Shown piece after piece: positions 7,386 to 56,069 of a stretch of DNA of 64,000 nt. This DNA is from Alloacidobacterium dinghuense (lineage in GTDB: Bacteria; Acidobacteriota; Terriglobia; Terriglobales; Acidobacteriaceae), in contig NZ_CP060394.1 in assembly GCF_014274465.1 (NCBI RefSeq), positions 868,001-932,000 on the forward strand, read 5' to 3'. A model generated the notes under the pieces. That model worked only from the letters and a program-made list of their open reading frames with translations, was not told the DNA's origin and searched no databases. Numbering within the stretch: the first letter of the stretch is position 1; each line of letters begins with the position of its first letter. The translations under genes and the position numbers were made by a program.

Positions 7386-8016
7386 TTGGCCCGCCATCCA
7401 TCGGTCGCGTTTGCGGTGGCCGGTACGCGCACCTCGCCGGAGGGTTCGACACATCTGGTCGCACATTTTCTGCTGGCCGATAAATCAGCAGTTCCCGGGG
7501 AACACGACCTCAAGGCGTATTTATGGGGCGCGCTACCGATTACATGGTTCCCTCGATTTTTGTGCAACTCGAGACTTTGCCAGTTTCGGCCAACGGCAAG
7601 GTCGATCTCTCTCGGCTTCCCGGCCCATCGAGTGCCGGCCAGTCCGTCGTGCGGACGCAATCGGTCACTAATGAAGTCGAGATCAGACTGTCGCGGATCG
7701 TCCAGGATCTTCTGGGCAGACGGTCCATCAGTGAGCATGACAACCTGTCCTATCAGGAGGGCATTCGCTCTTTGGGATGCAGCTCCTGACGCGCGTGCGC
7801 ACGGCGTTCGGTGTCGACCTCTCGCTGCAGCAGTTGTTTGACGCGTCAGCCGTCCACGGCATCGCTTCGGTGATTCGGGGAAATCATGGGCGTCCTCAGA
7901 AAGAAAACCTGAACGGGCGACAAATGTTTGCGACGCACCCGCATCCTGCTGTTTCTCGAACGCAACTGCTGTATTCGTACTGTAATCTCCCTTCCAAATA
8001 CTTCAATCCCGCTTAA
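7386..8016 (+). pseudogene. NRPS fragment: end of adenylation domain plus carrier domain, frameshifted
   Basis: Three overlapping frames join into one recognisable protein piece. Frame one (7386 on) gives LARHPSVAFAVAG and LVAHFLLADKSAVPGEHDLKAYLWGALP. Near 7537 the frame must shift to continue as DYMVPSIFVQLETLPVSANG with KVDLSRLP, the A10 end of an adenylation domain. Near 7745 a second shift gives the carrier-domain core LSGGHSLFGMQLLTRVRTAF and LQQLFDASAVHGIASVI, including the serine that would carry phosphopantetheine. Both shifts look like single missing bases. Upstream adenylation core motifs are absent, so this is a truncated relic. It follows the flavoprotein, suggesting a decayed peptide-metabolite locus. 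Confidence 0.8.
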
Positions 8017-8137
8017 CCATCCTTCCTTGATCGCACCGGAAAGCTTGCGCATTCCGGTTCCCCACATCCTTCCATCAGCCGAGAAGAACGAAGGAAACCG
8101 TTTGCGGTGTTTCTGCGTGAGCTTTGCTCGTGGTCCT

Positions 8138-10384
8138 TTAGAAGACGCTTTCGTTCTCGAGCAAAATGGGATCCTTGGAAATTTCCACGGATCCTCCAAT
8201 GACACCGTGCACAGCTCCGGTGAGATCGTGATATTGGACGTATTGGCTTGGAACGGTGTAGTTCGCTGTTCCCGCTGTGTTCCAGACGGCCTGAGCGACA
8301 TATCCATCGGCGCGCGTAAAGCTGCAGACAAATGTCGTGGGGCTCGCTGGAATCTCGGCGCACGGCTGACTTACGGTGACGCCGGTGATCCATTGGGACA
8401 CCCGTTGATAGCCTTCGCCCGCCGTGTTCAGACCGCCGGTGCTGGTCCAGAGTGTTCCCCACGCTGGATTGTCGTACGCATACCAGAAGGTCCGTTGCAC
8501 GCCGATCGATTGCTCGAGAAGGAGCTGCCGTGCGAGCCAGCCAGCCTGGTCGGATTCTTCGGGAAGATTCGTATTGTTTCGCCAACTCGACTCGGTATCC
8601 CAGATGGGAAGGGAGCCATTTTCGTGTTTTGCTGCCACGGCCTGGAGCTGGTAGACGCTACCCTGGATGGGCTCCGGGGCCCCGCCGATAGTAGGATAGC
8701 CGTGAAAGGACACGATGTTGATGATGCTGTTGCCCCCCAACCCCAGCCAGTTGTCGAGCCAAGTGGTTCCACAGTATTGAACGCTGCCTGCGCACTCGGC
8801 CTGAGTTTCGTAGTTTCCGGTGGTCGAGGGACTAAGAAAGACCGCGGCAGGATCAACGGCCCGAATGATTGATTTCGCATCACTAGCCATGGCAACGAGA
8901 GTTTTGGGATCGCCTTGCCAATAGAAGGGGTCATTCGCCTCGTTCCAGAATTCCCAATATTGAATCGCTCCCGCCCCGAGATGCGAAATCAACTGGGTCA
9001 CAAACTCATCCCAAAGACTCAAACTGGCGGGCGCCTCGGCGCACATGGACGGAGCGTAGGCGCCGCCGCACACAGCACTGATGGTGCCCGCGGATGAAGA
9101 GCTGTCGGCGCCCGATTGCGCGTAGGTGAAGGTGTTGGCGGTGGGAGTTCCAGTCAGATAAAACGTGCCGTTAAAGCTGGAGTTGGAAACTCCGGCAAGG
9201 GTGACCTGACTCTGAGAAGAAGCCGGCTGTGTCGGGTTGTAGTACATCCCGTGAGCCGACGATGTCGTCACGGTCACGAATCCGCCCGACCTTGTGATCG
9301 ATTGGATTGGCACATTTTTTGGTAGCGCCCAGGGCGGAACTCCGCCAAAGGTATAGAGCAATTGGGAGCCGTTTGCGCGAGCCATGCTCACCTGAGCGTC
9401 CAGATTCTTCCATGTGTACGTGGTTGCGCTGGGATTGAGATTGCCCCATTTTGTTCCGGTGTCCCACAGCCTGATGGTGTGGATCGGCAATTCGGGCCAT
9501 GGAGTTCCAGCGGTCAGATAGTCGATGTTCATGGCGAAAAAGGCCGCCGAGGAGTTGGGCGTCCGGACCGGCGTCGAGTGGGGAACGATCGTATAGGAGA
9601 CGGTTGATACGGGTCCGGCGGGGCCGCCTGGCACTGCGGCGACAGCCTTGAGCGTCATATTGCTAGTCACGGTGATCGGACCCGTGTATCGGGTTGACGA
9701 AGTCGTGGGGGTTACGCCGGTGACAGTGTAGTAGGTCGTAGCCCCAGATGTCGCATTGCTGATTGCGATCGACTGCGGGCCCTGGTATACGCCGGCGGCC
9801 TCGCTAAAAGTGGGAGCTACAGCCGAAACGAAGGCATACGTTGCGGATGTAACGGGGCCAGCCGGACCGCCCGGAACAGCCGCGATCGCCTTGAGCGTCA
9901 TGTTCCGGTTGACGGTGATCGATCCGGTGTATTGCGTCGAATAGACGGTCGGCGTTACGCCACTGACGGTGTAATAGATTGCGGCACCGGCCGTTGCGTC
10001 ACTGATCGCGATCGACTTGTAGGCCTGATAAGTTCCTCCAGGTGTACTGAAAACGGGCGCCACTGGCGGGACGAAGGAATAAGTAGCGGTCGCAACGGCG
10101 CTGACCGGTCCACCCGGAACGGCCGCGATCGCCTTGAGTGTCATGTTCCGGTTGACAGAGATCGGTCCAGTGTATTGCGTCGAATAGATGGTCGGCGTTA
10201 CGCCGCTGACGGTGTAGTAGATCGTCGCGCCAGGCGTGGCATCTGTGATGGTGACAGATTTGTAGGCTTGATACGTTCCGCCAGGCACACTGAACTGTGG
10301 CGCAGAAAGTGTCACGGCCAGAGATGAAATCCCGGTGGACAAGGCAAGGAGAAGGATAATTGCGAAAGAACGTACTGCTGGCAT
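8138..10384 (-). CDS. Secreted clan-A glycoside hydrolase with three chitobiase C-terminal-like repeats
   Basis: A 748-residue exported protein. The ATG at 10384 is chosen because PAVRSFAIILLLALSTGISS is a clear signal peptide and GAGGC lies upstream; the frame is open 22 codons further. Three near-identical repeats of about 77 residues follow (roughly 28-104, 105-182, 183-260), each with GGTYQAYKS-like, YYTVSGVTPT and MTLKAIAAVPGGP segments, the chitobiase C-terminal-type beta fold. The rest is a TIM-barrel glycosidase resembling GH39: WEFWNEAND near residue 478 supplies the acid/base Glu and IWDTESSW near residue 595 the likely nucleophile Glu. It probably cleaves a plant or microbial polysaccharide outside the cell; the substrate is not determined. 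Confidence 0.75.
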   Translation of the reverse strand: MPAVRSFAIILLLALSTGISSLAVTLSAPQFSVPGGTYQAYKSVTITDATPGATIYYTVSGVTPTIYSTQYTGPISVNRNMTLKAIAAVPGGPVSAVATATYSFVPPVAPVFSTPGGTYQAYKSIAISDATAGAAIYYTVSGVTPTVYSTQYTGSITVNRNMTLKAIAAVPGGPAGPVTSATYAFVSAVAPTFSEAAGVYQGPQSIAISNATSGATTYYTVTGVTPTTSSTRYTGPITVTSNMTLKAVAAVPGGPAGPVSTVSYTIVPHSTPVRTPNSSAAFFAMNIDYLTAGTPWPELPIHTIRLWDTGTKWGNLNPSATTYTWKNLDAQVSMARANGSQLLYTFGGVPPWALPKNVPIQSITRSGGFVTVTTSSAHGMYYNPTQPASSQSQVTLAGVSNSSFNGTFYLTGTPTANTFTYAQSGADSSSSAGTISAVCGGAYAPSMCAEAPASLSLWDEFVTQLISHLGAGAIQYWEFWNEANDPFYWQGDPKTLVAMASDAKSIIRAVDPAAVFLSPSTTGNYETQAECAGSVQYCGTTWLDNWLGLGGNSIINIVSFHGYPTIGGAPEPIQGSVYQLQAVAAKHENGSLPIWDTESSWRNNTNLPEESDQAGWLARQLLLEQSIGVQRTFWYAYDNPAWGTLWTSTGGLNTAGEGYQRVSQWITGVTVSQPCAEIPASPTTFVCSFTRADGYVAQAVWNTAGTANYTVPSQYVQYHDLTGAVHGVIGGSVEISKDPILLENESVF

Positions 10385-11160: not shown

Positions 11161-11232
11161 TACTCTGTGCAGGTGACCCAAGACGGTTTCCTAAACCGCA
11201 GGTCGGAAGTTCGAATCTTCCCAGAGTCACCA
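11161..11232 (+). tRNA. tRNA-Arg(CCT)-like sequence with shortened D arm, possibly a pseudogene
   Basis: The 3' two thirds fold as a tRNA: anticodon stem ACGGT/ACCGC (11183-11187 and 11195-11199, four of five pairs) around loop TTCCTAA with anticodon CCT, T stem GGAAG/CTTCC with loop TTCGAAT (11205-11221), acceptor strand CAGAGTC, A and CCA at 11222-11232. The 5' acceptor TACTCTG pairs at six of seven positions. The D region (11170-11182) is only 13 nt, does not form a normal D stem and lacks the usual GG loop. It may be a decayed gene or the 3' copy left by an integrated element. Confidence 0.5.
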
Positions 11233-14889: not shown

Positions 14890-15085
14890 TGCATGGTCCA
14901 CGACAACGATTAACGCATGAGATGCTCGGGAAGACGGTGAGAATCCGTCACTGCCCCGCAACTGTGAGCGCGACCCTGCGTCTGTCAGATGGAGATGCGC
15001 AGGGAAATGTCAGACCTGAATGCCACTGGGAAGATCCGGGAAGGCGGTTTTGACAGACAGCGCGCGAGTCAGGAGACCGGTTTCA
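14890..15085 (+). promoter_or_regulatory. Cobalamin (B12) riboswitch
   Basis: The leader contains the conserved core in order: GGGAAGACGGTGAGAATCCG at 14928-14947, CACTGCCCCGCAACTGTGAG at 14949-14968, GCCACTGGGAAG near 15022, and the 3' B12 box GAGTCAGGAGACC near 15066. The outer segments GCATGGTC near 14891 and GACC...CATGC near 15075-15088 can pair as P1. These are the hallmarks of the adenosylcobalamin aptamer. It ends about 80 nt before the receptor start, so ligand binding would be expected to lower receptor expression. Confidence 0.92.
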
Positions 15086-15163
15086 TGCGGGAAGAGAAAC
15101 GGGATTGGCCATTGCGGCCAAGTTGCCGTTCGAACCGCGTTCCGAGGGGAACGAAGGAGAAAT

Positions 15164-54803: not shown

Positions 54804-54929
54804 ATAGGATGAATTGCGAGAGAGGTCGCCGTATCTGGCAAGCGTGATCACGGTGGCCTAAGCCATTCTTGCTGTAACTGGTTTGGACGTTTTCTTCTTC
54901 GTTCAGGATAAGAGCAGCAGGCCCGGATG

Positions 54930-55330
54930 GCGCGGTCCGGCCGTTCGAGCGCCTGAAGAGCCGCCCCCGTCCTTTGCGGATCGACAAGCCCGGAGGGGGA
55001 GGAACCAACGAAAAGACTCGCTTGCCTGAGCCCATGGACCTTCTCTTCCCCAAATGGCAGCGCGAATTGTTCAACACCATTCTCGACGAAGAGAAACTTA
55101 AAGCTGACCGGGACGGTCAAGCGCGCACTGCTTACAGCCTGCGCCATACCTACATCTGCCTGCGCTTGATGGAGGGGGCGGATATCTACCAGATCGCCAA
55201 GAATTGCAGGAGATCGGTCGAGATGATCGAAAAATTCTATGCCTCCCATATCAAGACCCGCCTCGACGCGGCGGCTATCAACATCATGCGCAAGAAGAAG
55301 GTGGCCAAGGAACTTCGCACCGGCACTTAG
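54930..55330 (+). pseudogene. Tyrosine integrase, C-terminal remnant
   Basis: Only the last part of a phage-type integrase is left. AVRPFERLKSRPRP is visible near 54,930, then MDLLFPKWQRELFNTILDEE, TAYSLRHTYICLRLMEGADI with the catalytic RHT box, and YQIAKNCRRSVEMIEKFYAS with the nucleophile Tyr. The N-terminal DNA-binding and first catalytic Arg regions are missing. It ends 21 bp before the tRNA-Leu gene on the same strand, so it is probably the stub of an element that used this locus. Confidence 0.7.
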
Positions 55331-55351
55331 CCTTATACTTAAGGTGGCCAC

Positions 55352-55699
55352 GCGGGCGTGGCGGAATCGGCAGACGCATCGGACTTAAGCGTAACTTGAG
55401 TGCTCGCCGGGAAACCGGCGATGCAGAACTGTTCAAATTCGGGGAACCCTGTGAAATGGCGATCCCGAGCCAAGCCCCGACGGAGAACTCCGGAGGGGAA
55501 GGTGTAGAGACTAGACGGGCAGCACCTACCGCCGAACGGCGACAGACCGAACGGTCACGGTGAAGGTATAGTCCAGACCACAAACCTGCCGGAGCGTCCC
55601 TCGGACGCGCTTTCCGGCAGGACGGCGAAAGCCGCAGATGGTAAGAAAATCCGTTGGGGCGCAAGCCCCGTGAGGGTTCAAGTCCCTCCGCCCGCACCA
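55352..55699 (+). tRNA. trnL: tRNA-Leu(UAA) interrupted by a group I intron
   Basis: Exon 1 (55352-55386) reads GCGGGCG acceptor, TG, D arm GCGGAATCGGCAGACGC, A, anticodon strand TCGGA and CTT, ending after U34. Exon 2 (55646-55699) starts AAAATCCGT, giving loop CTTAAAA with anticodon TAA, then a long variable arm GGGGC/GCCCC, T stem GAGGG/CCCTC with loop TTCAAGT, acceptor CGCCCGC, A and encoded CCA. Acceptor pairing is complete. The mature tRNA would be 89 nt, a class II leucine tRNA. Confidence 0.93.
55387..55645 (+). ncRNA. Group I intron in tRNA-Leu(UAA), 259 nt, no ORF
   Basis: Splice-site U34 pairs as U-G with internal guide GAGT (55398-55401) against exon ACTT. P2 is CGCCGG-GAAA-CCGGCG (55405-55420). 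The Q-like AAATTCGGGGAACCC lies near 55436. P7, the guanosine site, pairs GACTA (55509-55513, in GTGTAGAGACTAGACGGGC) with TAGTC (55569-55573, in AAGGTATAGTCCAGA). A P9-type hairpin CGGC-GAAA-GCCG is at 55623-55634 and the intron ends with the terminal G at 55645. Size, insertion site and core match the IC3 introns of cyanobacterial and plastid trnL. Confidence 0.92.
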
Positions 55700-56069
55700 G
55701 CCTAACTCTTTTATTCGCGTCCCCACCTCTCCCGGAGGTCCAACAACGACGCCTCCGTACAACCAAAGTCTCCTATGAATCAGCAAGATGTGTGTTGCGA
55801 ATATGGGAGATACTGAAGCAACCTAATCCAATAGCATCTCTGATTCTTGCGCTGAGAGCGCACGCCACAGAATGAATATCGAAGCCGATACCTGCCGGAA
55901 ATATGTTGTCCCAAGGCTGCTCATCTTAGGCGGGGGAGCTGTTCGTGCAAAAGAAGTGCGAACGTTTGAATTCGGCAACGCTTCGCGAGTACGTCGGAAT
56001 CGCCTGCGAGCATTACGCTTCGAATTTCGGAGTGAAGATCGACTACCGGACTGTGACCATGCAGAAGAC
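55700..56069. other. Intergenic stretch after the tRNA, no gene seen
   Basis: Short frames here lack family resemblance, and no clear attachment repeat of the tRNA 3' end is visible downstream. The frame at 55945 on the plus strand runs into the convergent esterase gene and is not accepted. Confidence 0.4.

Follow-up and report, generated by a model that had tools for sequence, protein, structure and literature searches.

The 64,000-nucleotide stretch of the Alloacidobacterium dinghuense genome analyzed here (NZ_CP060394.1, positions 868,001 to 932,000; hereafter the window) contains a tRNA-Leu(UAA) gene that is interrupted by a group I intron and is very probably the rescue gene of an integrative element, i.e., a complete tRNA gene that travels with the element and replaces the host gene broken by its insertion. 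We are fairly confident that the window holds a decayed form of such an island. The explanation as a whole, which adds that the intron shields the rescue gene from the element's own integrase, appears probable.

The split tRNA-Leu(UAA) gene and its intron

When introns were allowed, ARAGORN read a split tRNA at positions 55352 to 55699, in agreement with the coordinates given in a first-pass annotation of this DNA; the program placed a 257-nt intron and called the gene Phe(aaa). Among five junctions tried, the removal of 259 nt after U34 that the annotation had proposed (55387–55645) was the only one that yields tRNA-Leu(UAA). The locus has the following features:

54878..55330, + strand, putative truncated tyrosine recombinase (integrase) gene, C-terminal third, 150-aa open frame (blastp and tblastn matches to relatives)
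55352..55386, + strand, 5′ exon of tRNA-Leu(UAA), from the acceptor strand GCGGGCG to U34 (ARAGORN with introns, exon joining, sequence)
55383..55401, + strand, P1, exon ACTT with guide GAGT and the U-G splice pair, plus AAG/CTT (U-G kept in 43 of 43 introns)
55387..55645, + strand, group I intron of 259 nt in the anticodon loop, CTT^AAAATC (RF00028, covariation, fold z-score)
55429..55434, + strand, P3 5′ strand, partner 55517–55522 (100% of cells paired)
55509..55513, + strand, P7 5′ strand GACTA, partner TAGTC at 55569–55573 (five pairs, invariant in 43 of 43 introns)
55523..55526, + strand, P8 5′ strand CACC, partner GGTG at 55559–55562 (two pairs changed on both sides)
55646..55699, + strand, 3′ exon of tRNA-Leu(UAA), terminus CGCCCGCACCA, its acceptor strand complementing the 5′ exon (ARAGORN and exon joining, sequence)

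Without introns, ARAGORN found no tRNA in the whole window; because such a plain search misses the gene, elements of this kind are easily overlooked. A promoter scan of positions 55250 to 55780 found none. Elsewhere in the window, a weak match to the tRNA model (32.3 bits) lies at 11161–11229 on the plus strand (G000:C1:879161-879229, locus L046), where ARAGORN reads no tRNA, and a cobalamin riboswitch (RF00174, 79.5 bits) lies at 14903–15099 on the same strand.

A covariance search had been proposed as a check of the intron, and Rfam model RF00028 indeed matches positions 55377–55591 with 50.1 bits, a thin margin above the gathering score of 50 (E = 9.7e-10); scores across the family range from 34 to 59 bits. 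The intron strand folds better than all of 200 shuffled sequences (z = −4.43). In an alignment of 43 introns, comprising that of the window and 42 relatives, nine named helices were paired in 98.1% of cells, compared with 24–44% when the partners were slid by one to three columns, a control that somewhat flatters the fold because the structure was drawn on the window's own sequence. Stronger evidence for the fold is provided by the pairs that had changed on both sides: 13 were observed, and shuffling gave 5.6 on average. None of the nine helices lacks a pair in the window's intron, whose last base is G, as the first-pass annotation had stated; the U-G splice pair with guide GAGT and the P7 pairing GACTA/TAGTC, both also named there, are kept in all 43 introns.

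The search for further copies covered the single 6.27-Mb contig of the window's genome. The tRNA covariance model gave 52 matches, with 150 of 186 candidates scored, and the leucine genes among the 15 stretches examined, which included every match of at least 80 nt, were those for UAG, CAA, CAG, and GAG. The spliced tRNA, used as a query, matched the two exons of the split gene, trnL(UAG), and seven weaker stretches. A second intact trnL(UAA), which together with an unspliced copy here would have refuted the first-pass annotation by its own criterion, was found by neither approach, and the split gene is the sole tRNA found for codon UUA in this genome. Because tRNA-Leu(UAA) is required to read UUA by established decoding rules and no other trnL(UAA) was found, the tRNA of the window must presumably be spliced. 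That the gene is instead a decayed and unspliced pseudogene is extremely improbable: the truncated integrase alongside is the one feature that would fit such decay, but all pairs of the nine helices form, the tRNA is complete once the 259 nt are removed, and the genome yielded no substitute.

Integrase remnant and island architecture

The open frame upstream of the tRNA gene ends 21 nt before it and aligns to residues 276–412 of a 428-aa relative. It shares 72% identity with the integrase of locus L082 (blastp) and 64–89% identity over 80–122 residues with seven other loci (tblastn), and shorter matches occur at more. Pfam gave no match for the remnant alone and a SAM-like integrase domain in its relatives, which measure about 410–450 aa from stop to stop and, at other loci of the family, immediately precede intron-bearing trnL genes. 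When a full-length relative was modeled (mean pLDDT 80, pTM 0.53), its predicted structure retrieved XerA as the best Foldseek match (E = 2.7e-8), together with lambda Int and Tn1549 Int, at TM-scores of about 0.3–0.5 over the whole chain. By domain and fold, the proteins of the relatives are tyrosine recombinases, presumably active ones; four of the integrases had no match to any NCBIfam model at E 0.001.

Matches to RF00028 were obtained in 52 of 300 genomes of the family, a count from which the filters lose weak matches. Thirty matching loci were examined with their flanks and comprised 21 intron-bearing trnL genes, two CAT tRNAs, and seven loci without a tRNA reading. Integrase matches, some of them short, lie upstream of 11 of the 21 intron-bearing trnL genes, and the flanks examined for the other 10 contained none. 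Two loci (L019 and L025) have a 5′-half-like stretch directly before the intron gene and no integrase match, an end state similar to that of the window. Matches other than trnL(UAA) in the family were L002, L004, L005, L006, L008, L010, L012, L013, and L014, with L005 and L013 being read as the CAT tRNAs with introns.

The complete module in relatives consists of the 5′ half of a native trnL, the integrase gene, a foreign trnL(UAA) with intron, cargo, and the 3′ half of the native trnL, and we are confident in this architecture as read from the sequences. Upstream of the integrase, seven loci have a tRNA-Leu 5′ half that lacks an intron and breaks off at CTTAAAATC (six loci) or at CTCAAAATC (L064, a CAA gene). 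Pattern searches in 28 genomes detected native 5′ halves in 15 and native 3′ halves in 10; one genome (G195) also contains an intact intronless trnL. Both halves lie on one contig around the intron gene in four genomes, enclosing 59 kb (G168), 50 kb (G190), 37 kb (G158), and 33 kb (G283), respectively. The acceptor strands of the native halves are mostly GCCCGGA/TCCGGGC, and those of the element gene in the family loci are GCGGGCG/CGCCCGC, so that the native halves pair with each other and not with the intron gene. An element that supplies only the 5′ exon and the intron while the native 3′ exon is retained was considered and rejected on the basis of this complementarity. Nine right ends (L092–L096 and L098–L101) lack an acceptor 5′ strand, and the native tRNA is therefore not rebuilt there. 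No right end was found within about 15–16 kb of the tRNA gene at L082 and L084; the G168 island extends over 59 kb.

The repeats at the ends of the four islands measure 9, 18, 25, and 35 bp, the shortest being CTTAAAATC. This 9-bp repeat would mark the recombination core, and the insertion point of the intron (CTT^AAAATC) falls inside it. When the flanks of the G283 island were joined across the native tRNA, the joined sequence matched a congeneric genome, G208, over a single stretch (positions 2–495 of 495, 92%), and it matched G283 itself as two pieces that overlap at 232–266, the 35-bp repeat. The empty site in G208 holds a complete intronless trnL. Target halves at both ends and an empty site, as in a tRNA-targeted integrative element, are thus present in relatives (G283/G208, and halves around the G158, G168, and G190 islands). 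Across 34 loci, the rescue 5′ exon agrees only partially with the relic, on average at 20.4 of the last 24 letters, and the median identical run back from CTT is 7 nt.

The cargo of the G158 island includes a type I restriction system, a PtuA-like ATPase with a weak PtuB-like neighbor, an error-prone polymerase set (RecA-like, ImpB/MucB-like, and DNA polymerase III alpha), two further phage integrases, and a sigma factor. A TrwC relaxase and a TrwB coupling protein mark this one island as integrative conjugative or mobilizable. By eye, TTACACATT-like motifs recur near element ends (e.g., L104, L108, and L150) and may be integrase arm sites. Also by eye, an element in trnL(CAA) (L085/L064) carries behind its integrase a pair of genes that we take to encode a short helix-turn-helix protein and a HipA-like protein.

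In the window's own genome (G000), neither the spliced-tRNA query nor the pattern search found a native 5′ half. Two native 3′-half relics lie on the minus strand at 1226117–1226170 and 2802170–2802223 (L379), about 303 kb and 1.88 Mb from the intron gene and on the other strand. Because no 5′ half was found and the 3′-half relics are distant and on the other strand, the island is not delimited here, and the boundaries seen in relatives were not recovered in this genome. The simplest reading is that the window's gene is the leftover of an old insertion that was later broken up, the relics probably stemming from the same event.

Of the first-pass annotation's interpretation, the presence in an acidobacterium of a trnL(UAA) split after U34 by a group I intron stands; the alternative it posed between very ancient descent and an unspecified lateral move is not supported as framed, since the intron gene is probably part of an element that is driven by an integrase and bounded by native tRNA halves. 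The intron resembles those of cyanobacterial and plastid trnL(UAA) genes in its tRNA, its group I fold, and presumably its anticodon-loop position; we take the subgroup (IC3) and the exact insertion position to be the same. Ancient vertical inheritance within the Acidobacteria of an intron shared with cyanobacteria would explain this common tRNA and presumed common position. This already disfavored explanation is highly improbable, because RF00028 matches are patchy in the family, intact intronless trnL genes occur in the same family (e.g., at the G208 empty site), and the intron gene and the broken native gene coexist in one locus as different tRNA genes. The intron could also have entered an intronless trnL by homing or reverse splicing, a usual route for group I introns, without involvement of the neighboring integrase. 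However, the relics show the intron gene and the native gene to be separate genes with different acceptor stems, and a 259-nt intron with such a core would leave no room for a homing endonuclease gene; we thus consider this route very unlikely.

Distribution among public genomes, plasmids, and viral contigs

When public bacterial genomes were scanned with an alignment of the integrases, at least 561 relatives were obtained; the following counts refer to the best 80 of these. According to the record titles, the best 80 belong to the Acidobacteriota (41), Pseudomonadota (31), Planctomycetota (3), Gemmatimonadota (1), and Candidatus Binatota (1), with three unplaced; the single cases from the Gemmatimonadota and Binatota may be misbinned, because most public loci are binned metagenome contigs. 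A UAA relic lies upstream at 40 of the 80 loci, of which 36 have an intron-bearing rescue gene, three end at a contig edge, and one (L152) has no rescue gene in the 900 nt behind the integrase. CAA relics occur at 25 loci, accompanied by a plain CAA tRNA in 10 cases and by a UAA rescue gene with intron in one (L150), and for 14 no rescue gene was found within that distance. These 14 insertions would be understandable if tRNA-Leu(UAA) also reads UUG, and reading of UUG by wobble is established decoding for this tRNA. The remaining 15 loci, without a relic detected by pattern, comprise six plain rescues, four rescues with intron, and five without any; they include L192, although a UAA relic is visible there by eye. 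The loci were read by script and by eye, the rescues of L150, L192, L198, and L202 by eye.

Among 385 alphaproteobacterial genomes drawn, 14 contained the integrase, including the genome at the center of the draw. Apart from the locus of the latter, 16 alphaproteobacterial integrase loci were read: four with an intron-bearing trnL, two with other tRNAs nearby, and 10 with none. The four intron-bearing rescues keep the core and may overlap with the best 80. In 392 Planctomycetota genomes, drawn likewise, the integrase was detected at E 1e-60 only in the central genome itself. Seven loci on alphaproteobacterial plasmids (L075–L081) contain the integrase in whole or in part; ARAGORN detected no trnL at any of them, and a scan of five with Rfam gave no group I intron. 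Because many alphaproteobacterial and plasmid loci have the integrase without an intron-bearing trnL, the integrase family extends beyond the intron module.

Some match to the window's gene occurs in 1,278 of 72,556 plasmid records from several genera. On two enterobacterial plasmids, an intron-bearing trnL(UAA)-like gene, read by ARAGORN as a split tRNA in both, lies beside aac(3)-IId (L031, 5996–6292; L032, 5996–6293); the L031 gene looks complete by eye, and no integrase of the element's family was found in L031. One Bradyrhizobium plasmid (L033, 6503–6792) carries integrase remnants and a trnL(UAA) that is complete and contains a 204-nt intron, and another (L034, approximately 8001–8255) a decayed intron-bearing trnL(UAA) that Rfam does not report. 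Viral contigs contained 12 integrase relatives (tblastn), among them L331, which has a UAA relic, and L332, in which a CAA relic is accompanied by a plain CAA tRNA. A pattern scan of viral contigs for cyanobacterial-type trnL introns gave at least 120 stretches, 45 of them with intron core motifs, and no trnL(UAA) reading in the 420 nt tested. The 735-kb record of an uncultured phage (LR756501.1) matches positions 2–162 of the split-tRNA query at 190377–190527 with 71% identity.

A possible shield function and comparison with known systems

These observations would be accounted for by the following mechanism. A tyrosine recombinase would insert the element into the anticodon loop of the host trnL(UAA), or of trnL(CAA) in other members, and the insertion would cut the host gene into a 5′ half and a 3′ half. 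The broken gene would be replaced by a complete tRNA-Leu(UAA) with a different acceptor stem that is encoded just behind the integrase gene. Because the same anticodon loop must be encoded, the rescue gene would itself be a target of the integrase. Since the group I intron sits inside the core, the joined core is absent from the DNA, and self-splicing would restore it in the RNA, presumably also in vivo. After decay of the integrase, the host would have no other trnL(UAA) and would therefore keep the intron gene, which is the state seen in the window. We put the chances that the intron thus hides the rescue gene from the element's own integrase at roughly even.

The letters of the anticodon stem bear on this role. 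All 65 relics that were read have G30-A31, and the rescue genes with intron keep G30-A31/T39-C40 in 38 of 38 readable cases (of 41), whereas the stem letters are changed in 12 of 16 intronless rescues, including the sole intronless UAA rescue (L197). The four intronless rescues with an unchanged target stem are L171, L180, L181, and L204, of which L180 and L181 share the same tRNA. This count excludes L132, L135, and L170, where the sequence is masked or cut. The association between intron and stem change was strong (Fisher's exact test; p = 5e-9, uncorrected for relatedness), but a tree-corrected test on the integrase tree, with eight changes of intron state, contained seven independent pairs, of which four were as predicted, none was against, and three showed no difference (p = 0.125, not significant). 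The second tree excludes L194, which has a broken frame, and the loci from the alphaproteobacterial draw are off the tree. With only seven independent pairs at p = 0.125, the pattern is suggestive. Further points that count against the explanation are the UAA rescue with intron in a CAA insertion (L150), the lack of a rescue gene at L152 and at the 14 CAA loci, the alphaproteobacterial and plasmid integrase loci without an intron-bearing trnL, the 10 family loci without an integrase match, the undelimited island in the window's own genome, and the partial agreement between rescue exon and relic.

The rescue tRNA could also have been captured from an intron-bearing donor, with the intron being a passenger that plays no role against the integrase. 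This explanation is consistent with the small number of independent changes behind the corrected test and with the existence of intronless rescues with unchanged stems. It would leave unexplained why the intron position coincides with the shortest end repeat and why most intronless rescues are altered in the stem while those with intron are unaltered in every readable case. The presence of the intron in only one of 25 loci with a CAA relic also speaks against a passenger, although the need for a U-G splice pair would likewise forbid an intron in a CAA tRNA. On balance, we regard a passenger intron as rather unlikely and favor the shielded rescue gene. A tentative extension, for which the odds seem slightly short of even, is that the group I intron serves as a DNA-level mask of the rescue gene, while elements with a CAA rescue, which has no U34, use changed anticodon-stem pairs instead.

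Several known systems share features with the element. In IStrons, the intron removes the element itself from the RNA, and splicing renders the element harmless to the host gene. Here, the intron resides instead in a rescue gene beside the integrase, and what both have in common is a group I intron joined to a mobile element (for IStrons, according to a title cited in PMC4853749). Islander-type islands are characterized, in the available text of PMC4383910, by a tyrosine integrase, a tRNA target, crossover in the anticodon loop, and tRNA fragments as end marks, all of which are shared by the element described here. Islands in tRNA genes normally restore their target, with attP containing the restoring fragment (PMC4383910, same portion). 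In contrast, the target here remains in two halves and is replaced by a separate, complete tRNA gene inside the element; restoration of the Islander type was not seen at the nine right ends read. Tycheposons likewise are large, cargo-carrying elements with a tyrosine recombinase and a tRNA at the border, but the available part of PMC10872708 mentions no group I intron for them.

Group I introns in bacterial tRNA genes are well known (PMC3984707), and the terms integrase, attachment, and genomic island do not appear in the main text of that article, as far as available. For Thiomargarita and the BOGUAY genome, both outside the cyanobacteria, putative group I introns have been reported in tRNA-Leu-TAA, with no mention of an integrase in the accessible sections (PMC4853749). 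The introns described here differ by their link to an integrase. BOGUAY is presumably a Beggiatoa. The distribution of the cyanobacterial trnL(UAA) intron has been described as one acquisition followed by several losses (available text of PMC4476775). The trnL introns of cyanobacteria and plastids are unlike the present case, in which the intron-bearing gene is carried along with an integrase and stands in for a native gene that has been broken. That they are themselves fossil rescue genes of such an element is improbable. Within the open-licence literature, which set the scope of the search, no description of an intron-bearing rescue tRNA on an integrative element was found, including in the available parts of PMC4383910, PMC10872708, PMC4476775, PMC4853749, PMC8450103, and PMC3984707.

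The element has boundaries, an integrase, and an empty site in relatives and would thus constitute a vehicle for a trnL intron in the Acidobacteriota and Pseudomonadota, with fewer loci in other phyla. Introns in trnL have traditionally been taken as signs of very old descent, and we know of no described vehicle for their moves between lineages. A suggested reason for the retention of the intron is that it protects an essential spare gene against the enzyme of its own element. Such an element would explain how a foreign tRNA gene with an intron can take the place of an essential one and persist after the element itself has decayed.
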